Positions 1 to 16,081 of a DNA stretch of 64,000 nt are shown in pieces; positions within the stretch are counted from its first letter, which is position 1; every line of letters starts with the position of its first letter. The position numbers and the translations under genes are program-made. Under the pieces are notes generated by a model. It did no database searches. It had not been told where the DNA came from and saw nothing but the letters and a program-made list of their open reading frames with translations. Source of the DNA: Sediminibacterium sp. TEGAF015 (GTDB lineage Bacteria > Bacteroidota > Bacteroidia > Chitinophagales > Chitinophagaceae); contig NZ_AP026683.1 of the NCBI RefSeq assembly GCF_025997995.1, positions 1,922,501 through 1,986,500 on the forward strand, read 5' to 3'.

Positions 1-223
1 TCCGCTGCAAAACATTTTTTGGAATAGTGTCACCAACAAAAGGCTCCATTACACGAAAAGCAATTTCCTCTTTTGAAAAACTGCGAAGTTGCTCAATGAA
101 CGTCTTCTCATGCAAAGGAATCTCTTCGGGAAAATACAAGCCCTTATCTGGCGCTTGTCCTTTTAGTGTAGCTTCCCTAAAATCTACCGGAGAAGATTGT
201 TTGTTTAAACTAAAATATTTCAT
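1..223 (-). CDS. thrC: Threonine synthase, N-terminal 74 residues (cut by window edge)
   Basis: Threonine synthase is the PLP enzyme that converts O-phosphohomoserine to threonine, the last step of the pathway. Only the N-terminal domain is in the window; the gene runs off the left edge, so the PLP lysine is not seen. The start MKYFSLNKQ and the motif APDKGLYFPE (about residues 26-35) are typical of the family. The ATG (223-221) overlaps the thrB stop in an ATGA, which suggests translational coupling. It is the last visible gene of the leu-ilv-thr block. Confidence 0.9.
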   Translation of the reverse strand, partial: MKYFSLNKQSSPVDFREATLKGQAPDKGLYFPEEIPLHEKTFIEQLRSFSKEEIAFRVMEPFVGDTIPKNVLQR

Positions 224-1149
224 GAAGCTTCGCTTAAAAGGATTCCGCGTGTATTAATGGTTGTTAGGTAGGTATGGTAACCCAGTCCAATCTGATCGTA
301 AATCTGACACATGGCCAATTCAACGGATTTGGCAGTACTTTCATTCGTACTTAACATGAAGATAGAAGGGCCTGAACCTGAAATACCTCCTCCGAGTGCG
401 CCCAACTCTTTACTCGCTTTTTTAACTTTGTCAAATGCAGGGATGAGAATACTTCTAGTAGGTTCAATTAAAAAGTCTTCCAATGATCTTCCGATTAAAT
501 CATAATCGCCCTGTTGCAATCCAGCCACAAGTCCTGCAATATTCCCCCATTGCTTAATGGCATCTTTTAATAACACCTGCTGTTTCAATATGCTTCTTGC
601 ATCAGAAGTTTTTACTTCAATTTGGGGATGAATGATGGTGACGTATAAATCAGGCACATTCAACTTTACAATATCCAATGGAAAAACAGAGCGAATTAAA
701 GTAACGCCACCATAAATGCAGGGCGCAATATTATCTGCATGCTTAACCCCTGAAGCCAGCTTCTCCCCATTCATGGCAAATTTCACCAGCTCTTCTTTGG
801 AAAATGGATTGCCAAGCAAAGCATTGGCGCCTGCTACTGCACCAGCAGAACTAGCCGCACTGGAACCCACACCACTTCCTGGCTTTATCTGTTTGTTAAT
901 CGACAGCTTAAATCCCACAGGCTGCCCATAAGCTTCCATTAATGCAAGCAATGCAGCACCCGCAACATTTTGCAAAGGATCAGTTGGCAAATTAAAATCA
1001 TCTTCATTTACAATAACAATTCCAGGCTCCGGGGTTAACTCAATATGCATGATATCATAGGGCTCATGCACGGCAAAACCCAGCACATCAAAACCACAAA
1101 CCATATTGGCTACCGTAGCAGGACTATGTATCGTAATTTTTTTACCCAT
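220..1149 (-). CDS. thrB: Homoserine kinase
   Basis: Homoserine kinase of the GHMP family phosphorylates homoserine with ATP to give O-phosphohomoserine. The protein has 309 residues, the normal length. The ATP-binding GHMP motif PGSGVGSSAAS lies at residues 90-100, and a glycine-rich C-terminal GHMP motif GGGISGSGPS lies near residue 255. The ATG directly follows the thrA stop with no gap, and the 3' end overlaps thrC by four bases, so thrA, thrB and thrC are tightly coupled. The order matches the order of the reactions. Confidence 0.95.
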   Translation of the reverse strand: MGKKITIHSPATVANMVCGFDVLGFAVHEPYDIMHIELTPEPGIVIVNEDDFNLPTDPLQNVAGAALLALMEAYGQPVGFKLSINKQIKPGSGVGSSAASSAGAVAGANALLGNPFSKEELVKFAMNGEKLASGVKHADNIAPCIYGGVTLIRSVFPLDIVKLNVPDLYVTIIHPQIEVKTSDARSILKQQVLLKDAIKQWGNIAGLVAGLQQGDYDLIGRSLEDFLIEPTRSILIPAFDKVKKASKELGALGGGISGSGPSIFMLSTNESTAKSVELAMCQIYDQIGLGYHTYLTTINTRGILLSEAS

Positions 1150-3588
1150 TTAAGCTATGCGTATAATATCTGCAAATACACCAGAAGCAGTTACTTCAGC
1201 TCCGGCTCCTGCTCCTTTAATTACCAATGGCTGTTCGGGATACCTTTCTGTATAAAACAATACAAGGTTATCCTTTCCATATAAATGATAGAAATCAGAA
1301 TGCGCCGGAATTTCCTGTAAACCAACTTTGGCTGACCCATTATAGTACTCAGCAACAAATTTCAATTTGGCATGATTGGCTTTTGCGCTTGCTAATAATT
1401 GTTGAAAATGCGGTTCTTGCCTTTCCATTTCAGCATAAAAATCAGCGACTGTCCCTTCAAAACAACTCGCAGGCAAGAAAGCCTCATTGGTAATCTGATC
1501 CATTTCCATCATCTCGCCTGCTTCTCTTGCTAAAATCATTATTTTTCTCATCACATCCGTTCCTCCCAAATCCAATCTTGGATCTGGCTCTGTATACCCT
1601 TCGTCCTGTGCACGCTTTACTACCTGTGCAAAAGGTATGGTTCCGTTATAATGATTGAATACAAAATTTAAAGTGCCCGATAAAACAGCCTGTATTCTGG
1701 TTATCTTATCTCCACTTCTCATTAAGTCATTGAGCGTCCCAATAATTGGCAAACCAGCTCCTACATTGGTCTCAAATAAAAAGCGCGTATTGTAGGTTCT
1801 GGCCAGATGCTTTAGCTTTTTATAATTTTCATAAGTAGAGGAGCAGGCAATTTTATTGCAAGCAACCACTGCAACACTTTTGGCTAATAAAGTACCATAC
1901 ACAGACGCTACAACTTCATTGGCTGTAACATCAACAAAAACACTGTTGCGGAGGTTCTTTTCTATAATGGCAGTAACAAAACCATGAATATCTGTTTCAG
2001 GTGATTCTTCTAAAACCGATCTCCAGTTATTCAAATCAATCCCTGCATCATCCAATATAGCACGTCTGCTATTTGCAATACCTACGACTTGTATTTGCAA
2101 ACGCATATGATCTTTTAAATACTGCAACTGCTGATTCAACTGCCCCAATAATTTTCCTCCCACATTACCTGCTCCAGCTACAAATACATTCAACTGCTTA
2201 TAGGTTGTTTCAAAGAAGTCTTCGTGTAAAACATTAATGGCTTTTTTAACATCAGTTGCAGCAATTACGGCAGATATATTTTTCTCAGAAGATCCTTGAG
2301 CAATGGCTCTTACATTTATTCCGTTTCTGCCCAAACCGCCAAACATTCTTCCACTGATACCTGGTAAGCTTTTCATTTGTTCTCCTACTACTGCTACAAT
2401 ACTTAACCCAGTTTCTACTGATACAGGATTTACTTTCCCATTTTCAATTTCGTAGGCAAAAAAAGCGTCAATTGCCCGTTGGGCAGTATTTGCATCTGCT
2501 TCATTAATGGCAACACAGATAGAATACTCAGAGGAACTTTGGGTAATTAAAATAACATTGATTCTATTCAATGCCAACACTTCAAACAATCGCTTACTAA
2601 ATCCGGGTATACCAATCATACCACTTCCCTCCAAACTCAACAAAGCAATTCGGTTAATGCTGGATATCCCCCTTACTACATCAGAGTTGGCAACCGCATG
2701 TTGTTGAATAACGGTGCCTGCTGCTTCAGGTTCAAAAGTATTCTTCACCCAAACAGGAATGTTTTTTTTCATCACTGGCTGAATGGTGGGCGGATAAATT
2801 ATTTTAGCCCCAAAATGAGATAGCTCCATGGCTTCCTCATAAGAAATAGCTTCAATAGGTCTTGGATTCAAAACCAAACGCGGGTCTGCTGTCATCATCC
2901 CGGTAACATCCGTCCAAATTTCAAGTGCGGTAGCATCAGTTGCGGCAGCAAAAATAGCTCCTGTATAATCAGATCCCCCTCTACCCAATGTAGTAGTATA
3001 TCCTTTTTCATTGGCAGCAATAAATCCGGGAGCAACATACAAAGAGGAGGAATTACTTTGTAAAAAAGAAAGAATCCGTTGATTAGTCATTTCAAATTGC
3101 ACACTTGCATTTCCATAGAAATCATTGGTAATAATGAGCTCTCTGGAATCGGTCCAGACAGGATTCGTATTCAATTCCTTCAATGCAGCAGTAATGATAT
3201 AAGAAGAAAGCAACTCTCCATAACTTACCAGTCTATCCTGTATTCTGGCCGACAACTCTCCCAATAAAAAAATACCATCACAAATCCTTTCCAGTTCATT
3301 TAGTTGCTGCTTCACCCAACTTAAAGTAGCACTTTGATTTTGTACGGGCAACAACCCTCGTACTGCTTCCAGGTGTTTTACTTCAAGCTCCTTGATTTGT
3401 TCTTTATAACTTTCATCACCACCAGCAGCTTTTGCACCAATAGCAATCAGCTGATCGGTTACGCCCCCCAATGCAGATACTACTAAAATAACAGGCTCTT
3501 TTTGTACAGCCTTTGCCACTATAGCTGTTACCTTACCGATATTTACAGCATTAGCAACAGAACTTCCTCCAAACTTTAATACCTGCAT
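1150..3588 (-). CDS. thrA: Bifunctional aspartokinase / homoserine dehydrogenase I
   Basis: This fused enzyme phosphorylates aspartate and reduces aspartate semialdehyde to homoserine, the first and third steps toward threonine. It has about 812 residues, the usual length of the fusion. The N-terminal aspartokinase motif KFGGSSVAN is at residues 5-13. Two ACT-type regulatory segments fall around 310-460, so threonine feedback inhibition is likely by family knowledge. The homoserine dehydrogenase Rossmann motif FVAGAGNVGGKLL follows near residue 465. I start at the ATG at 3588 (MQVLKFGG); an in-frame TTG two codons upstream is less likely. The gene begins 10 bases after the ilvA stop. The partner asd is not in this window. 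Confidence 0.95.
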   Translation of the reverse strand: MQVLKFGGSSVANAVNIGKVTAIVAKAVQKEPVILVVSALGGVTDQLIAIGAKAAGGDESYKEQIKELEVKHLEAVRGLLPVQNQSATLSWVKQQLNELERICDGIFLLGELSARIQDRLVSYGELLSSYIITAALKELNTNPVWTDSRELIITNDFYGNASVQFEMTNQRILSFLQSNSSSLYVAPGFIAANEKGYTTTLGRGGSDYTGAIFAAATDATALEIWTDVTGMMTADPRLVLNPRPIEAISYEEAMELSHFGAKIIYPPTIQPVMKKNIPVWVKNTFEPEAAGTVIQQHAVANSDVVRGISSINRIALLSLEGSGMIGIPGFSKRLFEVLALNRINVILITQSSSEYSICVAINEADANTAQRAIDAFFAYEIENGKVNPVSVETGLSIVAVVGEQMKSLPGISGRMFGGLGRNGINVRAIAQGSSEKNISAVIAATDVKKAINVLHEDFFETTYKQLNVFVAGAGNVGGKLLGQLNQQLQYLKDHMRLQIQVVGIANSRRAILDDAGIDLNNWRSVLEESPETDIHGFVTAIIEKNLRNSVFVDVTANEVVASVYGTLLAKSVAVVACNKIACSSTYENYKKLKHLARTYNTRFLFETNVGAGLPIIGTLNDLMRSGDKITRIQAVLSGTLNFVFNHYNGTIPFAQVVKRAQDEGYTEPDPRLDLGGTDVMRKIMILAREAGEMMEMDQITNEAFLPASCFEGTVADFYAEMERQEPHFQQLLASAKANHAKLKFVAEYYNGSAKVGLQEIPAHSDFYHLYGKDNLVLFYTERYPEQPLVIKGAGAGAEVTASGVFADIIRIA

Positions 3589-3598
3589 AAACAATTTA

Positions 3599-4858
3599 TT
3601 AAATTAAATACCCGAATAAGTTATCGTTCTTGTTGATAGGAGTAAAATTGATATGATAGCGTTGCATATTTTCCAGCAAACGTTCATAATCAGCTTTATC
3701 CTGCATTTCAATCCCTACCAATGCGGGACCGGTTTCTTTATTATGCTTTTGCATATATTCAAATCGAACAATATCATCCGTTGGTCCCAATACATGATTC
3801 ACAAACTCTTTTAATGCACCCGGTCGTTGTGCAAAACGGATTAGAAAAAAATGTTTCAACCCTTCAAACTGCAAGGACCTTTCTTTAATTTCCTGCATTC
3901 GGTCAATATCATTATTGCTTCCACTTACAATACATACTACTTTCTTCCCCCTGATCATTTCACTATAGTTATCCAATGCAGCCACAGACAAAGCACCTGC
4001 AGGTTCCACCACTATCGCATCTTCATTGTATAATTTCAGAATTACAGAACATACTTTGCCTTCATTTACCAAAACCATCTCATCAATTACCTCTTTACAA
4101 ATTTCAAAAGGATAGTCTCCTACTCGCTTTACGGCTGCACCGTCTACAAAGGGATCAATACTGTCTAATTTTACAGGCATTCCTTTTTTTAATGCTTCCG
4201 ACATAGAGGGAGCTCCTTCGGGTTCAACGCCTATGATTTTAGTATTGGGCGATGCCTGCTGAAAATAGGCACCAACTCCCGCAATTAATCCTCCACCACC
4301 AACGGGTGCAAACAAAAAATCAATTTCCTGCAAATCGGCTAAAATTTCCACTCCAACGGTGGCTTGCCCTTCAATCACTTTGGGATGATCAAATGGAGGT
4401 ATGAAAGTCATACCATTTGCTTCAGTAAATATCTTTGCGGCTGCTGCACAATCATCAAATGTGTCTCCAACTAGTTTAATCTCAATATTTCCATCACCAA
4501 ACATTTTCGTTTGTCTCACTTTCTGATTGGGAGTAATGATGGGCATAAACACAACCCCTTTTATATTCAACACTTTACAGCTATAGGCAAATCCCTGCGC
4601 ATGATTTCCAGCACTGGCACATACAACCCCTTTAGCTCGCTGTTGTTCGGGCAAACTGCTAATCATGTTGTACGCACCTCTTAATTTATAAGAACGTACT
4701 ATTTGCAAATCTTCCCTTTTTAAATAAACGGAGCAGCCATATTTCTTAGAGAGAGAGGCATTGTAAATAAGTGGTGTATGCTTCACCACAGCCTTCAATT
4801 TTTCTTTTGCTGCTTCAATTTCTAAGCCAAATCCTGCTATGGTAGTTTGTTCCTGCAT
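3599..4858 (-). CDS. ilvA: Threonine dehydratase, biosynthetic
   Basis: IlvA deaminates threonine to 2-oxobutanoate, the entry point to isoleucine. The protein has 419 residues. The PLP-lysine motif SYKLRGAYN has its lysine at residue 58, and the phosphate-binding glycine loop GGGGLIAG is near residue 187. The segment from about residue 335 to the end resembles the single ACT-like regulatory domain of the shorter (Bacillus-type) enzymes, so isoleucine feedback is likely. It sits between ilvC and thrA, joining threonine synthesis to isoleucine synthesis in one transcription unit. The gaps are 14 bases (to ilvC) and 10 bases (to thrA). Confidence 0.95.
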   Translation of the reverse strand: MQEQTTIAGFGLEIEAAKEKLKAVVKHTPLIYNASLSKKYGCSVYLKREDLQIVRSYKLRGAYNMISSLPEQQRAKGVVCASAGNHAQGFAYSCKVLNIKGVVFMPIITPNQKVRQTKMFGDGNIEIKLVGDTFDDCAAAAKIFTEANGMTFIPPFDHPKVIEGQATVGVEILADLQEIDFLFAPVGGGGLIAGVGAYFQQASPNTKIIGVEPEGAPSMSEALKKGMPVKLDSIDPFVDGAAVKRVGDYPFEICKEVIDEMVLVNEGKVCSVILKLYNEDAIVVEPAGALSVAALDNYSEMIRGKKVVCIVSGSNNDIDRMQEIKERSLQFEGLKHFFLIRFAQRPGALKEFVNHVLGPTDDIVRFEYMQKHNKETGPALVGIEMQDKADYERLLENMQRYHINFTPINKNDNLFGYLI

Positions 4859-4872
4859 TTGTATGTAACTGC

Positions 4873-6357
4873 TTACTGATTGGTTGCGATGGTTTTCATA
4901 TCGGTCATCGCTTGTCTTAATTTTTCTCCTACTATTTCTACAGGATGATATCTGATTACTGCATTCACTGCTATCAGTGTTTTATTGTCAACACCGTTGT
5001 CTTTGCCGTCATTGAAATTTTTTCCAATCACATCAGTATCAATTTTGGTCATGAAATTGGCTAATAAAGGCTTACAGGCATGATCAAATAAATAACAACC
5101 ATATTCAGCCGTATCAGATATTACACGGTTCATTTCGTATAGTTTCTTTCTGGCAATCGTATTGGCAATCAATGGTGTTTCATGAAGCGATTCATAATAG
5201 GCAGACTCTTCCTTAATGCCAGCTTCTACCATTGTTTCAAATGCCAGTTCTACTCCTGATCTAACAAATGCTACCATCAATAATCCATTATCGAAGAATT
5301 CCTGTTCGGAAATTTTCATATTCCCAGCCGCTGTTTTTTCAAACGCTGTTTCACCTGTCGCTTCTCTCCAAGTCAATAATTTTTTATCCCCATTGGCCCA
5401 GTCTTCCATCATACCTGAAGAAAAGGCACCGCTCATAATATCGTCCTGGTGTTTCTGAAATAAGGGACGCATAATTTCTTTCAATTCTTCTGAAAGTTCA
5501 AAAGCTTTCAGCTTGGCAGGATTAGATAAGCGATCCATCATAGCAGTAATACCACCCTGCTTTAAAGCTTCTGTAATCACTTCCCATCCGTACTGAATTA
5601 ATTTAGCTGCATAGCCAGCGTTGATTCCTTTTTCAATCATTTTATTGAAAGACAAAATAGAACCTGTCTGTAGCAAACCACATAATATTGTCTGCTCACC
5701 CATTAAATCTGATTTTACTTCAGCAACAAAAGAAGATTTTAATACACCTGCTCTATGACCACCTGTTGCTACACAATAAGCTTTAGCGTAATCCCATCCC
5801 TTTCCTTCCGGATCATTTTCAGGATGAACCGCAATCAACGTAGGGACTCCAAAGCCACGCTTGTATTCTTCCCGCACTTCTGTACCTGGACATTTGGGAG
5901 CAACCATAATTACCGTAATGTCTTTTCGAATCTGCATGCCTTCTTCTACAATATTAAAGCCATGAGAATAGGAAAGCGTAGCACCTTTTTTCATCAAAGG
6001 CATAACAGCTGCTATTACCGAACTATGTTGTTTATCCGGAGTAAGATTGATTACCACATCAGCCGTTGGAATCAATTCTTCATAAGTGCCTACTTTAAAA
6101 TTATTTTCTGTTGCATTAACATAGGAAGCCCTTTTTTGATCAATCGCCTCTTTTCTCAATGCATAAGAAATATCCAGTCCAGAATCGCGCATATTCAACC
6201 CCTGATTCAAACCTTGCGCGCCGCAACCAATAATCACCAGTTTTTTGCCAACCAATGCATTGATTCCATCAGCAAAAGCAGCTTTATCCATGAATTCGCA
6301 AACACCCAGCTGATTCAGCTGCTCGCGTAAAGGAAGAGAATTGAAATAATTAGCCAT
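4873..6357 (-). CDS. ilvC: Ketol-acid reductoisomerase, long class II form
   Basis: IlvC isomerises and reduces acetolactate and acetohydroxybutyrate with NADPH, the second common step of valine and isoleucine synthesis. At 494 residues it is the long (class II, E. coli/plant-like) form rather than the roughly 330-residue class I. The nucleotide-binding motif [12 protein letters not shown] starts near residue 45. The extra C-terminal length fits the duplicated knotted domain of class II enzymes. It lies between ilvN and ilvA in the same operon. Confidence 0.95.
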
Positions 6358-6391: not shown

Positions 6392-6979
6392 TTACATAGT
6401 GAAAACAGCCTGTCCCTGATTAAGAAATTCGTTCTCTACCAATTCTTCTGCAGGCTCTACTGCTTCAAATTCTTTAATCTTTTCATGAAAACCACTGCTG
6501 GCTTTAATGATAGCGATTCTGGCAGTACGGACAAATTCAATTAAGCCGTATGGTTCCAGAAAATGAATCAATCGATCGGTTTCTTCCCTTTGACCCGTTG
6601 TTTCAAAAATGGTATAGTCTTTTCTAATTACGACTGCTCTTGCACCATATTCGCGAAGCAATCTTTCTACTTTCAGTTTTTCTGCTACCGCATCCGTAGG
6701 CACTTTATACAATGCCATTTCCTGCCAGATAATCTCATCATTGGTATTAAAATAGGCTTTTAATACTTCAACTTGCTTTTCAATCTGTAGACAAAGCTTT
6801 CGAACCACTTCTTCTGTTTCATTTATCACAATGGTGAAGCGATGGATAGATTCCACTTCAGAAGGAGAAACATTGAGGCTATCAATATTGATTTTTCTTC
6901 TGCTGAAAATAATCGCAATGCGATTTAGTAAACCCACCTGATTTTCTGTATAAACCGTTATAGTAAATTCTTTTTTCAT
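6392..6979 (-). CDS. ilvN: Acetolactate synthase, small regulatory subunit
   Basis: This is the regulatory subunit of acetohydroxyacid synthase; it confers valine sensitivity on the large subunit. It has about 195 residues, with an N-terminal ACT domain ([20 protein letters not shown], roughly residues 5-25) and a C-terminal second domain. The start is taken at the ATG 6979 (MKKEFTITV); the in-frame TTG at 6985 directly abuts the ilvB stop and is less likely. The gene follows ilvB almost without a gap, as is usual for the two subunits. Confidence 0.93.
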
Positions 6980-6985
6980 TGCCAA

Positions 6986-8740
6986 TTATTTTAAACGGAT
7001 TTCTGAAACACTGCAACCCTGGGGCACCATTGGGAAAACATTGTTTTCTTTTCCCACCATTACTTCCAGCAAATAAGAACCTTCTGAGTGTAGCATAGTT
7101 GATAAAGCAGCTCTTAGATCATTTCTATCAGAAACACTGGATCCATCAATGCCATACGCTTTAGCCAACTGAACATAATCAGGGCTTTGTATATCAACAA
7201 ATGAATAGCGTTTGTCATTGAATAATTCCTGCCACTGACGAACCATCCCTAAGAATCGGTTGTTCAGAATAAGGATTTTTACATTCAGCCCTGTTTGCAT
7301 AATGGTACCTAATTCCTGTAGGGTCATTTGAAAACCACCATCTCCAATGATGGCCACAACAGTTCTTTCCAGCGCGCCAAACTTAGCACCAATGGCAGCT
7401 GGTAAGGCAAAGCCCATGGTACCCAAACCACCTGAAGTAATATTACTTTTGGACGTATTGAATTTAGCATATCGGCAAGCCACCATCTGGTGTTGTCCTA
7501 CATCAGTAACAATGATGGCATCTCCGTTGGTCAATTCATTCAATTGCTGAATCACTTCACCCATGGTCATTTCACCTGATTTCGGAAACAATTCTGCATC
7601 CATCACCGCTTCTTTTTCTTCGGCAGTATATTGGTTAAACAAAGCCAACCATTCTTTGTGTTGCTTTGCTTCAACCAACTGTGTTAACAGTGGAAGCGTT
7701 TCCTTACAATCTCCCCAAACCGGTACTGTTACTTTTACGTTCTTATTAATTTCTGCCGGATCAATATCCAAATGAATAATTTGCGCTTGTTTGGCGTACT
7801 TATCTAATCGACCTGTTACCCGATCATCAAATCGCATGCCTACCGCAATTAAAACATCACACTCGTTGGTCAATACATTAGGTCCATAATTACCATGCAT
7901 TCCTAACATACCTACATTCTGTGGATGATCAGTTGACAAAGCACTTAATCCTAATATCGTCCAGGCAGCAGGGATACCAGACTTTTCAATGAAAGCCTTG
8001 AATTCTTTTTCTGCCTTACCCAGAATTACACCCTGTCCAAAAATTACAAATGGTTTTTTAGCTTCATTAATCAATTTGGCAGCAGCTTCAATATATTCTC
8101 TTCTTACAATTGGCTTGGGACGATAACTGCGAATATGGTTACAACGCGTATACCCTTCGTAGTTAAATTTTTGAATCTGTGCATTCTTACTTATATCTAT
8201 TAATACAGGTCCGGGTCTTCCAGAGCGGGCAATATAAAATGCTTTTGCCAACACATGTGGTATTTCTGTTGCATCTGTAATCTGATAATTCCACTTTGTA
8301 ACAGGGGTTGTTATATTTACTACATCGGTTTCTTGAAATGCATCAGTCCCCAGCAAATGTGCAAATACCTGTCCGGTGATACAAACCAAAGGCGTGCTAT
8401 CAATCATTGCATCAGCAAGTCCAGTTACCAAATTGGTGGCACCCGGACCACTGGTAGCAAATACTACTCCTACTTTACCGCTGCTTCTTGCATAACCCTG
8501 ACCTGCATGTATTCCACCCTGCTCATGTCTTACCAATATATGTTTCAGTTTGTCGTGATAATCGTACAAGGCATCATAAATGGGCATGATGGCACCACCA
8601 GGATACCCAAAAATGGTATCAACTCCTTCTACAATACAAGCTTCCAAAACCGCTTGTGATCCAGATAGTTCACGAACAACTGTTCCTGCTTTTGCAGTAA
8701 GTGTTTCTTTATTGGTTAACATGTCTAGTGTAGTACTCAT
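6986..8740 (-). CDS. ilvB: Acetolactate synthase, large catalytic subunit
   Basis: This thiamine-diphosphate enzyme condenses pyruvate with pyruvate or 2-oxobutanoate, the first common step of valine/isoleucine synthesis. About 584 residues are present, a full-length protein. The N-terminal substrate/FAD region shows GVDTIFGYPGGAIMP and GPGATNLVTGLADA, and the C-terminal TPP motif shows GDGGFQMTLQEL. I chose the ATG at 8740 (MSTTLDML), 10 bases after the ilvD stop. An ATG at 8761 would add seven residues and overlap ilvD by 11 bases, and it cannot be excluded. Confidence 0.95.
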   Translation of the reverse strand: MSTTLDMLTNKETLTAKAGTVVRELSGSQAVLEACIVEGVDTIFGYPGGAIMPIYDALYDYHDKLKHILVRHEQGGIHAGQGYARSSGKVGVVFATSGPGATNLVTGLADAMIDSTPLVCITGQVFAHLLGTDAFQETDVVNITTPVTKWNYQITDATEIPHVLAKAFYIARSGRPGPVLIDISKNAQIQKFNYEGYTRCNHIRSYRPKPIVRREYIEAAAKLINEAKKPFVIFGQGVILGKAEKEFKAFIEKSGIPAAWTILGLSALSTDHPQNVGMLGMHGNYGPNVLTNECDVLIAVGMRFDDRVTGRLDKYAKQAQIIHLDIDPAEINKNVKVTVPVWGDCKETLPLLTQLVEAKQHKEWLALFNQYTAEEKEAVMDAELFPKSGEMTMGEVIQQLNELTNGDAIIVTDVGQHQMVACRYAKFNTSKSNITSGGLGTMGFALPAAIGAKFGALERTVVAIIGDGGFQMTLQELGTIMQTGLNVKILILNNRFLGMVRQWQELFNDKRYSFVDIQSPDYVQLAKAYGIDGSSVSDRNDLRAALSTMLHSEGSYLLEVMVGKENNVFPMVPQGCSVSEIRLK

Positions 8741-8750
8741 ACAGTATAAT

Positions 8751-10430
8751 TTAAGCTTCATCGGTTACACAACCCTGAGAAGCATCTTTAACAGATTTAG
8801 CATATTTAAATAGTAGTCCTTTAGTGGCTTTCAAAGCAGGTTTACTCCATTTCTTTCTTCTCTCTTCAATAATATCATCTGCTACTTTCAACGTCATTTT
8901 TTTGGTAGCCACATTCAATTCAATGATATCATCATCTTCTACCAATCCTATCAGTCCTCCATTCACCGCCTCTGGCGTAATATGGCCTACTACAAATCCA
9001 TGCGTGCCCCCACTGAATCGTCCATCAGTAATCAAGGCAACTGACTTTCCTAATCCGGCTCCAATGATGGCTGATGTAGGCTTCAGCATTTCCGGCATTC
9101 CGGGAGCACCAACTGGCCCAACATTTTTGATGACAACCACATCTCCCGGTTGAATTTTCCCAGTATTAATTCCTTCAATCAATGCATGTTCGCCATCAAA
9201 TACCCTGGCAGGGCCTTCAAATAATTCGCCTTCCTTACCACTGATTTTTGCTACACTTCCTCCAGTTGCAAGATTGCCGTATAAAATTTGCAAATGACCG
9301 GTAGCTTTAACTGGGTGCTCTAAAGGAAGAATAATTTTCTGCTGATCAAAATCCAGATCAGGAACTGAAGCTAGGTTCTCTGCCAAAGTTTTACCAGTAA
9401 CTGTTAAGCAATCCCCGTGCAACAGTCCTTTTTGTAATAAATATTTCATAACAGCAGGCACGCCACCATACTGATGCAAATCCTGCATTAAATATTTTCC
9501 GCTGGGTTTAAAATCTGCAAGCACAGGAACCCTGTCAGATATGGTTTGAAAATCATCCTGTGTTACAACAACCCCTACACTTTTTGCCATAGCAATCATG
9601 TGCAATACGGCATTGGTGCTTCCTCCCAGCACCATGATAATTGTAATGGCATTTTCAAATGCCTTGCGGGTCATAATATCTGAAGGAAGAATATTATTCT
9701 CCATTAACACTTTAATTGCTTTACCAGCAGCCAGGCATTCCTCTTTCTTCTCGGAACTCAAAGCCGGATTAGAAGAAGAGAACGGCAAGCTCATACCCAA
9801 TGCTTCAATTGCAGAAGCCATAGTATTGGCTGTATACATACCACCACATGCTCCGGCTCCAGGACATGCATGCTTGATGATTCCTTTGAAATCATTTTCA
9901 TCTAATTGTCCTGCCAGTTTTTGGCCAAGTGCTTCAAATGCTGAAACAATATTTAAATCCTGCCCTTTATAATGGCCTGGCGCAATGGTTCCTCCATACA
10001 CCATAATGGCCGGTCTGTTTAATCGGCCCATCGCAATTAATGCACCGGGCATATTTTTATCACAACCTGGAATGGCAATGATTGAATCGTAGTATTGAGC
10101 GCCACATACTGCTTCAATGGAATCTGCAATTACATCCCTACTTACCAAAGAATAACGCATACCATCGGTACCGTTACTCATACCGTCGCTCACGCCGATG
10201 GTATTAAAAATCAATCCAACCAAATCATTTTCCCATACGCCTTGCTTAACTAGCTTTGCCAAATCATTCAAGTGCATATTACAAGTGTTCCCGTCATACC
10301 CCATACTCACTACCCCCACTTGCGCTTTCTGTAAATCTTCATCGGTTAACCCAATCCCATAAAACATTGCTTGCGCAGCAGGCTGCGTAGGATCCTGGGT
10401 AATGGTCTTACTGTATTTATTCAATTCCAT
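8751..10430 (-). CDS. ilvD: Dihydroxy-acid dehydratase
   Basis: IlvD is an iron-sulfur dehydratase that makes the 2-keto acids for valine and isoleucine (third common step). The protein has 559 residues, normal for the family. Cluster-ligand regions are visible as [10 protein letters not shown] (near residue 120) and [14 protein letters not shown] (near residue 190). The C-terminal [11 protein letters not shown] motif is present. The gene starts 16 bases after the ilvE stop and ends just before ilvB, within the attenuated ilv-thr unit. Confidence 0.95.
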
Positions 10431-10446: not shown

Positions 10447-11328
10447 CTAATTACTCAAAGGTGTAACCACCATTTTTTTGTATGCCTGCTGAACCTGATA
10501 ACTTTTTGTTTCCAAAAAAGATGCAGGAAAAACATAGTCATCCAATGATTCCCATCCAATTACTTCGGCTGCAGTACCACAGAAAAAAGCAGCATCAGCA
10601 GATTTGATATCCTGCAGCGTATATGTCCCTTCTCTCACTTCAATGCCCAATTGAGTACAGATTTCTAAAACAGTAGCTCTTGTTATACCAGCCAGAATAT
10701 GTCCTGGCTTTGGTGTAAACAATACACCGTCTTTCTCAAAAAACATATTTGCTCCCGGGCCTTCAGCCAAATGATCGTTCATGTCCAATAAAAAGGCTTC
10801 ATCATAGCCTTTGTCTTTTGCCTCCTGACTTGCCAGAATCGAATTCACATAGTGACCAGCTGCTTTTGCATGAATTTTAAAGGCTTTGGGATTAGGACGC
10901 TGAAAAGAAGAAGTCATCATACGCAATAATTTGTCACCTAAAAAAGGTGCCATTTCCCAGGCTTCAATAAAAACATAGGATTCAGTATTACGTGCAAAAC
11001 TCATATTAGCAGGAGCATACACAACAGGTCGTATATAAGCATCGCCTAACTTATTTTGATTCAATACTTCATAAGTGGCTGCAATTAATTCTTTTGTGTC
11101 AAAAGAATAGGGAAGATTTATTGCTTCTGCAGAAACCTTTAAACGCTCAAAATGCTCAACTGCTTTAAAGATAGCAGTCGAGCCATCTGTTGTTTTATAG
11201 GAGCGAATCCCCTCAAAAACGGAATAGCCATAGTGAAGCGACTGACTATATAAGTCCATGGTTGCTTCAGAAGCTTTTACAAATTTTCCATTATGATAAA
11301 TAATGGTATTCGATTGATAATAATTCAT
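10447..11328 (-). CDS. ilvE: Branched-chain amino-acid aminotransferase
   Basis: IlvE transfers the amino group in the last step of leucine, isoleucine and valine synthesis. It is a PLP fold-type IV protein; SVFEGIRSY (near residue 36) and GITRATVLEI (near residue 210) are family motifs. I place the start at the ATG 11328 (MNYYQSNTIIY), giving 293 residues. The longer in-frame version starting at 11391 would be translated through the terminator hairpin at 11345-11373 and is rejected. This is the first gene behind the leader-peptide attenuator, so its expression should follow Ile/Val/Thr supply. Confidence 0.93.
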   Translation of the reverse strand: MNYYQSNTIIYHNGKFVKASEATMDLYSQSLHYGYSVFEGIRSYKTTDGSTAIFKAVEHFERLKVSAEAINLPYSFDTKELIAATYEVLNQNKLGDAYIRPVVYAPANMSFARNTESYVFIEAWEMAPFLGDKLLRMMTSSFQRPNPKAFKIHAKAAGHYVNSILASQEAKDKGYDEAFLLDMNDHLAEGPGANMFFEKDGVLFTPKPGHILAGITRATVLEICTQLGIEVREGTYTLQDIKSADAAFFCGTAAEVIGWESLDDYVFPASFLETKSYQVQQAYKKMVVTPLSN

Positions 11329-11344
11329 TACAATTGGTTTAAAC

Positions 11345-11373
11345 AAAAAAGCCCCGCTGATGAGGCGGGGCTT
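11345..11373 (-). terminator. Attenuator terminator of the ilvE-thrC unit
   Basis: On the minus strand the sequence forms a stem of AAGCCCCGC with GCGGGGCTT (forward 11365-11373 and 11349-11357), nine base pairs with a seven-base loop. It is followed by an unbroken run of Ts, a textbook intrinsic terminator. It lies between the stop of the leader peptide (11395) and the ilvE start (11328). A segment at the end of the leader peptide can pair with its 5' arm, which makes it a regulated attenuator rather than a simple end of the leu transcript. Confidence 0.9.
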
Positions 11374-11394
11374 GTATATTAAGTGATTCAATAC

Positions 11395-11502
11395 TTAGTT
11401 AAGTCCACCTCCTTGCAGAGCGGTAATAATAATAATCGCAATCGCAATCATGTTAATGACTGTGTTTGTTGAAGTGATTACTATATTTTTTTTATTCTGC
11501 AT
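11395..11502 (-). CDS. ilv-thr leader peptide (35 aa, Ile/Thr/Val-rich)
   Basis: The 35-codon reading frame begins with ATG at 11502 and ends with TAA at 11395. It contains nine Ile, four Thr, two Val and two Leu, including the run IAIAIIIIT at residues 19-27. These are exactly the products of the downstream genes ilvE to thrC. It ends with LQGGGLN, whose codons include GGAGGTGG. It is preceded by a good Bacteroidota promoter about 12-15 bases upstream of the likely start of transcription. The product has no expected function of its own; its translation is the sensor. A longer in-frame reading to 11592 has no support. Confidence 0.88.
   Translation of the reverse strand: MQNKKNIVITSTNTVINMIAIAIIIITALQGGGLN
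11401..11414 (-). promoter_or_regulatory. Antiterminator arm inside the leader peptide
   Basis: The minus-strand segment AAGGAGGTGGACTT contains GAGGTGG (11411-11405), which can pair over seven positions (one G-U) with CCGCCTC of the terminator 5' side (11368-11362). CTT then pairs with AAG after a small internal loop. It lies 5-7 codons past the Ile run. A ribosome stalled on Ile codons would leave it free to form the antiterminator, while a ribosome at the stop codon would mask it. It also resembles a perfect anti-SD match but has no start codon behind it. Confidence 0.75.
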
Positions 11503-11520
11503 GGAGCTATTCGATTCATT

Positions 11521-11551
11521 CGAAGGTAGGCGTATGCAGTAATAAAACAAA
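11521..11551 (-). promoter_or_regulatory. Promoter of the ilv-thr leader
   Basis: On the minus strand a -33 element TTTG (11551-11548) is followed after exactly 19 bases by TACCTTCG (11528-11521), one mismatch from the Bacteroidota -7 consensus TAnnTTTG. The leader-peptide ATG at 11502 follows 18 bases later. This gives the ilv-thr half of the block its own start of transcription, separate from leuA. Confidence 0.7.
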
Positions 11552-15875: not shown

Positions 15876-16081
15876 TGTATTGGTTTTTATAGATAAAAAG
15901 ACAGGCGCGTATCCATTGCTATTGATTGCCTTAAATAACAACAGTACGGCCTGTCGTATTCGAATTTAGATTGCCTTATCTTTAGTCTTGAAACAAAATA
16001 GACGGGGTTTTACAATGCGCAACAGCAGTTAAAAACAATGAAACCCAATACAGTATTGAATTGTAGCTTAATATTTTTACG
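15876..16081. promoter_or_regulatory. Divergent promoter region with a terminator-like hairpin before leuA
   Basis: This 206-base gap separates leuA (minus) from the 519-residue protein gene (plus). For leuA a candidate promoter is TTG (16022-16020), 19 bases, TATTTTG (16000-15994). The implied leader of about 115 bases contains a stem of GACAGGC (15955-15949) with GCCTGTC (15906-15900), extended by four more pairs past one bulge. Its loop is about 33 bases, and TTTTT follows directly (15899-15895), 20 bases before the leuA ATG. I find no ATG-started leader peptide. The plus-strand gene has TATTTTTA at 16072-16079, just before its ATG. Confidence 0.45.

Follow-up and report, generated by a model that had tools for sequence, protein, structure and literature searches.

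A putative leader-peptide attenuator in front of the ilv–thr genes of Sediminibacterium and similar leaders in other Bacteroidia

Organization of the Locus

The window, that is, the whole stretch of 64,000 nucleotides analyzed here, carries at its beginning nine consecutive ilv and thr genes on the minus strand. A first-pass annotation made from the sequence had read these as one nine-gene unit whose products are the very amino acids sensed by a leader in front of it, and NCBIfam models indeed name them ilvE-D-B-N-C-A-thrA-B-C, in the order of transcription:

10447..11328, minus strand: ilvE, branched-chain aminotransferase, the first gene 3′ of the attenuator region (TIGR01122)
8751..10430, minus strand: ilvD, dihydroxy-acid dehydratase (TIGR00110)
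6986..8761, minus strand: ilvB, acetolactate synthase large subunit (TIGR00118)
6392..6985, minus strand: ilvN, acetolactate synthase small subunit (NF008864, 112.8 bits, just below the cut-off of 119)
4873..6357, minus strand: ilvC, ketol-acid reductoisomerase (NF003557)
3599..4858, minus strand: ilvA, threonine ammonia-lyase (TIGR02079)
1150..3594, minus strand: thrA, bifunctional aspartate kinase/homoserine dehydrogenase, immediately following ilvA (NF006959)
220..1149, minus strand: thrB, homoserine kinase (NF002288)
1..223, minus strand: thrC, threonine synthase, 5′ part only (TIGR00260)

The curated cut-off is passed by every gene except ilvN. Most of thrC lies beyond the window (L080:1929-3224, reaching about window position 223), and the next long open reading frame past it is encoded on the opposite strand. 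Between ilvA and thrA the gap from match to match is about 14 nt, which offers no room for a separate Thr leader. The closest named relatives of the IlvE protein belong to Sediminibacterium (91 % to S. salmoneum NBRC 103935); a metagenome-assembled genome with 94 % carries only the name Sphingobacteriia.

The gap between leuB and ilvE, read on the minus strand, holds a leader of 35 codons, an intrinsic terminator, and the motif GAGGTGG at the end of the leader:

11521..11551, minus strand: Bacteroidota-type promoter-like site by sequence pattern, TTTG (11551-11548), N19 and TACCTTCG (11528-11521)
11395..11502, minus strand: leader open reading frame, 35 codons, translated as MQNKKNIVITSTNTVINMIAIAIIIITALQGGGLN and then a stop codon
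11422..11448, minus strand: putative regulatory run, codons 19-27, ATT GCG ATT GCG ATT ATT ATT ATT ACC (IAIAIIIIT)
11405..11411, minus strand: GAGGTGG, 5′ strand of the putative antiterminator, within Gly codons 31-33
11368-11362, minus strand: CCGCCTC, 3′ strand of the putative antiterminator, located partly in the 5′ arm and partly in the loop of the terminator
11349..11373, minus strand: intrinsic terminator hairpin AAGCCCCGC-CTCATCA-GCGGGGCTT, then the U-rich tract TTTTGTTT

Each of these parts had been claimed in the first pass. The promoter-like site (TTTG-N19-TACCTTCG), the terminator hairpin at 11373-11349 with its U-rich tract, and the frame at 11502-11395 with nine Ile, four Thr and two Val codons and the run IAIAIIIIT are all present on the minus strand. 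The promoter-like site ends 18 nt 5′ of the leader ATG, and the terminator starts 21 nt past the leader stop. The leuB frame ends about 20 nt upstream of the promoter-like site; transcripts of leuACDB therefore probably also traverse the attenuator region.

Occurrence of the Leader in Family, Genus, and Class

For the family, an IlvE search in 147 genomes gave 57 matches, the window among them, with an E value of 1e-70 or lower, and the upstream kilobase was taken for 55 of the 56 relatives, with G044 left out because of a contig end. An Ile/Val-rich leader followed by a terminator was found in 52 of the 56 family loci including the window (51 of the 55 relatives). In all 52, the terminator starts 17-39 nt past the leader stop, so that a ribosome terminating at the stop codon should leave the terminator free. 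By eye, the peptides share the pattern M-x6-NVIS-x4-IIIVVVIIIPAxxGGG. In the genus set, a match was obtained for 24 of 61 genomes, counting that of the window, and 20 of the 23 others were taken (without G181, G184, and G189). Thirteen of these 20 further loci have leader and terminator, and in L067, which is cut by a contig end, the pairing segment and the terminator are visible. Conservation of an Ile/Val/Thr codon bias in relatives, which the first pass had put forward as a check on its reading, thus held up in family and genus. Across the class, 34 of 296 genomes matched at E 1e-80, and the 30 outside the family were taken; 23 of the 30 loci carry a terminator and a candidate leader, with five leaders doubtful by eye (L142, L143, L144, L151, and L156) yet counted, while seven have no terminator by the rule used. 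The ilv leader is accordingly regular in the family loci read, and similar candidate leaders occur in other families of the class.

Upstream of the leaders, the pattern TTTG-N16-23-TAnnTTnG was met within 100 nt of the start in 32 of the 65 family and genus leaders, as compared to 0.7 expected from letter shuffles, and was not matched in the other 33. The spacer is 19 nt long in 23 of the 32.

No ilv leader was seen in four of the 56 family loci (L042, L047, L048, and L056) and in six of the 20 genus loci (L062, L068, and L070-L073), so the leader is dispensable. In L042, L047, and L048, ilvE lies close behind leuB, and L056 has a short leaderless gap. Losses seem to have occurred repeatedly, in the genus tree in L062/L108/L109, L068/L070, L071-L073, and L121 and in the family in the four loci just named. 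In the leaderless loci of the genus tree, ilvE follows 11-47 nt behind leuB, and leu, ilv, and sometimes thr genes apparently form one long operon. A further observation concerns Cytophagales (Cyclobacteriaceae and relatives), where L118-L120, L122, L124, L125, and L127 have Ile/Leu/Val-rich frames and then GC-rich terminators before ilvE; several of these loci combine a GGGGCG-type end with CCGCCCC or CCGCCTCG in the terminator, as judged from the sequence.

Pairing between Leader End and Terminator

GAGGTGG and CCGCCTC can form seven pairs, six Watson–Crick and one G–U, just as the first pass had noted. To score such pairing across loci, the leader end was set against the 5′ arm and loop of the terminator, with leaders and terminators picked by codon content and hairpin score and not by mutual complementarity. 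Own pairs reached a mean of −15.66 kcal/mol in the 65 family and genus loci as compared to −14.49 kcal/mol for swapped ones, and −14.50 versus −9.48 kcal/mol in the 23 class-level loci, and none of 20,000 permutations was as low in either set; letter-shuffled leader ends gave a mean of −7.25 kcal/mol. The covariation of GAGGTGG with the terminator arm, the second check proposed in the first pass, was thus borne out, and comparison of these sequences indicates that the two pairing strands coevolve in the relatives. The class-level sequences differ greatly, for example, in L145, where GGATGAGG goes with CCTCATCC. For the unusual sequences of L050, L051, L054, and L055, just 0 or 1 of 64 swapped terminators equals the own one. 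At the other end of the range, in the window, L060, L064, and L069, the own terminator is equaled or surpassed in pairing by 55 of 64 swapped ones, because in these loci the terminators have CCGCCTC followed by A and not C. The corresponding values are 59 of 64 in L061, 62 of 64 in L063, and 61 of 64 in L029, and own pairing is weak (−8.0 to −9.2 kcal/mol) in L063, L065, L066, and L077.

Three relatives separate the peptide from the RNA. In L025, the leader stop TGA overlaps GAGGTGG; in L040, GGAGGTGG is translated as REVV; and in L027, the peptide ends in SPAGSIV and the RNA pairs through another segment. The glycines are thus lost, partly lost, or in another frame, while a pairing RNA segment is kept, which makes them look like a by-product of the RNA segment. 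The claim that the antiterminator is encoded by the glycine codons of the leader is therefore correct as to position (codons 31-33), but the glycines themselves appear to be incidental. The same loci bear on the possibility that the conserved product is a small hydrophobic membrane protein, with terminator and pairing merely accompanying it. A hydrophobic stretch in the peptide and start and end motifs that recur in the family would suit such a protein; however, its C-terminal residues are lost, altered, or frame-shifted where the RNA pairing persists, and the candidate peptides of other families are quite unlike it while the terminator still matches its own leader. We consider this explanation very improbable.

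Proposed Attenuation Mechanism

In the window, the terminator piece folds with −19.5 kcal/mol (z −4.55), in agreement with the strong intrinsic terminator of the first pass. With the terminator 3′ arm removed, the antiterminator reaches −12.8 kcal/mol (z −1.30), which is not exceptional against shuffles, and in the fold of the entire piece it is the terminator that forms (−21.7 kcal/mol). Since the antiterminator is less stable than the finished terminator, it can prevail only kinetically, and the switch must be decided during transcription. Support for the window antiterminator helix, as a feature predicted from sequence, is comparative and not thermodynamic.

The last Ile of the run is codon 26, and Gly codon 31 begins 12 nt beyond it. 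The same 12-nt spacing from the last codon of the run to the GG segment is found in 47 of 65 leaders including the window; in the other 18, it differs or was unscored, partly owing to the automatic run-finder. The remark that the pairing segment sits at the right distance past the Ile run was well founded in this respect. Going by the textbook size of the footprint, a ribosome whose A site is occupied by the last Ile codon extends roughly as far as the border of GAGGTGG, and a ribosome that has arrived at the stop codon lies over this segment.

The leader region combines an upstream open reading frame rich in codons for the products of the genes below, an intrinsic terminator before the first structural gene, a mutually exclusive antiterminator (seen in coevolution and in the fold without the 3′ arm), and a geometry fitting both stalling and termination. 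It is very probably a ribosome-mediated (leader-peptide) transcription attenuator of ilvE-D-B-N-C-A-thrA-B-C. With Ile-tRNA (and Thr-tRNA) in the charged state, translation would continue to the stop codon, where the ribosome would mask GAGGTGG; the terminator could then form, and transcription would end before ilvE. When charged Ile-tRNA is scarce, the ribosome would stall on IAIAIIIIT with its leading edge just short of GAGGTGG, and the free segment would capture CCGCCTC before the terminator 3′ arm exists, so that RNA polymerase would proceed into ilvE-D-B-N-C-A-thrA-B-C. This would be a three-segment design, in which the antiterminator is masked by the ribosome itself; no conserved protector hairpin was found. 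A classical protector (1:2) helix, UGCAGA (codons 1-3) with UCUGCA (codons 28-30), does appear in the window fold, but its letters were seen by eye only in the closest relatives, and it was therefore left out of the mechanism.

Regarding the amino acids sensed, the first pass had proposed Ile, Thr, and Val. The leader is Ile- and Thr-rich, whereas Val is weak, with Val at codons 8 and 15 only; many relatives instead have a Val run beside the pairing segment, and Val sensing is accordingly doubtful in the window species. The run of S. salmoneum (leader in L107) includes one Val codon, that of the window none. In the window's clade, no separate leader stands immediately before the thr genes, which leaves the ilv leader as their only visible attenuator.

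Two further readings of the gap have to be weighed against the attenuator, both of which we regard as highly unlikely. According to one, the strong terminator would be constitutive or part of a translation-independent RNA regulator between leuB and ilvE (riboswitch, T-box, or protein-bound leader). However, Rfam 15, which covers T-box, riboswitches, and known leaders, gave nothing at gathering score in the window or in eight loci (five with an ilv leader), and all 24 hits of a lax scan, including Trp, Leu, Phe, and Thr leader models and many small RNAs, fell below the cut-offs and are taken as chance plus shared architecture. Moreover, the part that recurs is the Ile/Val codon run, commonly at a fixed spacing to the pairing segment. 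According to the other, the terminated leader transcript (about 150 nt) would also have a function in trans, as a small RNA, and attenuation would be a side role; a promoter-like site and a strong terminator do delimit such a short transcript, but attenuation already accounts for the conservation.

Relation to Known Leaders

The mechanism proposed for the window is of a known kind, namely textbook ribosome-mediated attenuation, and searches of an open-access library gave no description of this ilv leader in Chitinophagaceae. The peptide is unnamed by Pfam and NCBIfam. Against the Pfam model of the enterobacterial leader (PF08046, IlvGEDA_leader), the window peptide gave no match, and one of three relatives' peptides matched below the cut-off (L059, E 0.058, 13.4 bits as compared to 25). 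The E. coli ilvGMEDA leader has an Ile/Val codon run and an intrinsic terminator before the ilv genes. This architecture is shared here, including, in many relatives, Pro after the run; unlike the enterobacterial attenuator, however, the window has Thr and not Pro at this place, and its putative antiterminator lies in the last leader codons.

Of the ilv leaders described elsewhere, the nearest that we met are the frames upstream of Corynebacterium ilvB-II (PMC10272879). They are likewise short, rich in branched-chain codons (two motifs also with Thr), located before branched-chain amino acid genes, and proposed to act by attenuation. They differ in preceding ilvB and not ilvE and in encoding peptides of usually 15-17 residues, and the likeness drawn here is one of description. 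Within the same phylum, passages on Flavobacterium psychrophilum report "strong clues" for leader-peptide attenuation before amino acid biosynthesis operons, but these passages contain no ilv-leader sequence or covariation (PMC9723704). Small open reading frames reminiscent of leader peptides are mentioned for B. thetaiotaomicron in an excerpt of PMC7366714. According to passages of PMC2965389, leader-peptide attenuation had by 2010 been demonstrated in Proteobacteria and Actinobacteria only; the paper itself proposed a case in Firmicutes. Motifs for ilv genes of other phyla are treated in parts of PMC8632094, and Lopatovskaya 2010, met as a citation in an extract of PMC4833913, may be relevant.

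The best-documented cases of leader-peptide attenuation come from Proteobacteria and Actinobacteria, and the present comparison adds a covarying leader–terminator pair before ilvE in most loci read of a Bacteroidota family and in loci of other families of its class. Shine–Dalgarno initiation is little used in this phylum. On comparative grounds, the ilv leader may be regarded as a candidate sensor for the control of branched-chain amino acids in environmental Bacteroidota. The set of loci could seed an RNA family, and it offers a natural experiment on sensor codons at operon fusion.

Position of thrA and a Possible Retuning of the Leader

The gene thrA was found in 54 of 56 family genomes. Only in the genome of the window and in its genus mate G082 is it encoded on the strand of ilvE at a downstream distance of at most 7 kb; in 13 genomes, this distance is 16-25 kb, again on the strand of ilvE. 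All 19 family thrA loci read have a Thr-rich open frame whose end lies some 90-240 nt upstream of thrA; a strict ATG start filter caught ten of these 19 frames. In those genus loci that extend as far as thrA, the gene comes after ilvA or ilvC. Here, L071, L074, L076, L078, L079, and L103 have a gap of 219-297 nt before thrA and retain the Thr leader, whereas in nine loci (L060-L066, L068, and L069) the gap measures 13-43 nt and contains no Thr leader.

The ilv leaders of the short-gap group contain a mean of 4.12 Thr codons (n=8, window included), as compared to 2.00 in the other genus loci (n=7, including L075 and L077, whose gaps were not seen) and 1.74 in the rest of the family (n=50; in L039 and L041, which have no suitable ATG, codons were counted over the last 35). 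With kinship ignored, P is 0.0042 against the genus and 5.1e-5 against the family; yet the short-gap loci with a leader are essentially one clade (tree support 0.765 at one node) and thus represent a single evolutionary event, so that these P values are suggestive only and not independent evidence. Ile codons are slightly more frequent in the short-gap group (8.88 versus 7.26). Val codons average 3.00 as compared to 5.10 in the rest of the family (P 0.004), but are not clearly fewer than the 3.71 of the other genus loci (P 0.44), and the loss of Val is therefore not tied to the Thr leader. Furthermore, the Pro after the run is replaced by Thr in the window's closest relatives; since L009, outside the genus, also has Thr here, this change alone is no mark of fusion.

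One might suppose that the ilv leader was retuned at operon fusion, that is, that the Thr leader was lost while the ilv leader gained Thr codons, so that one leader would now gate the flux from aspartate to both Thr and Ile. We advance this tentatively, as a reading with somewhat less than even chances. Against it stand L065 with just two Thr codons, L062 and L068, which have short gaps and no ilv leader, and L121, located elsewhere in the tree, with a gap of 68 nt and no ilv leader. If retuning did occur, the codons of an attenuator would be a readable record of the gene content of its operon.

A parallel thr fusion outside the family, with thrA behind ilvA, was encountered in three genomes of one family among the 30 class genomes searched. 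L160 and L161 have thrA behind ilvA with the Thr leader still there, and L162 has a gap of 695 nt with repeated stretches; these loci were rejected as replicates of the window state because the Thr leader is kept or the gap is long. In L118, L119, and L120, thrA is also found behind ilvA.

The Thr leader itself was observed before thrA in L081-L099, in the ilvA/ilvC–thrA gap of L071, L074, L076, L078, L079, and L103, and in L160 and L161. Its stop codon lies in or beside the loop of a small hairpin, CAACCC/GGGTTG, in which one pair is U–A instead of C–G in four of 20 aligned sequences (fold support is weak, −5.93 kcal/mol). The hairpin is mostly followed by a CATATTACC...GGGC block, of which GGGC was not seen in L092 and L093. 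There is no obvious U-tract terminator, and five loci scanned gave no Rfam match.

Codon Choice and the leuA 5′ Untranslated Region

Across the 58 loci with both sequences, Val is encoded by GTC in 86 of 271 leader codons as compared to 44 of 743 in leuB, about five times as often, and Ile by ATT in 314 of 440 as compared to 412 of 921, with ATT favored over ATC. This departure from the codon usage of leuB speaks in favor of attenuation. Codon bias is known for attenuators, as described in passages of PMC1183508; the selective-charging theory presented there does not by itself, that is, without tRNA data, explain the Val GTC excess.

Of 12 loci inspected for a leucine leader before leuA, none had a convincing one. 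Instead, genus loci share a conserved hairpin before leuA, which was not seen by eye in L101, L116, and L129 and gave no Rfam match in the window. The window copy (15885-15958, minus strand) is very stable (−26.9 kcal/mol, z −5.31), with GGCAAU in the loop, GACAGGC/GCCTGTC closing it, a U tract after it, and a promoter-like site just before it. In the consensus of five aligned loci, which has 21 pairs, both partners are changed at five pairs, and six pairs are interrupted or gapped in one or two of the loci. The hairpin is possibly a regulatory RNA.
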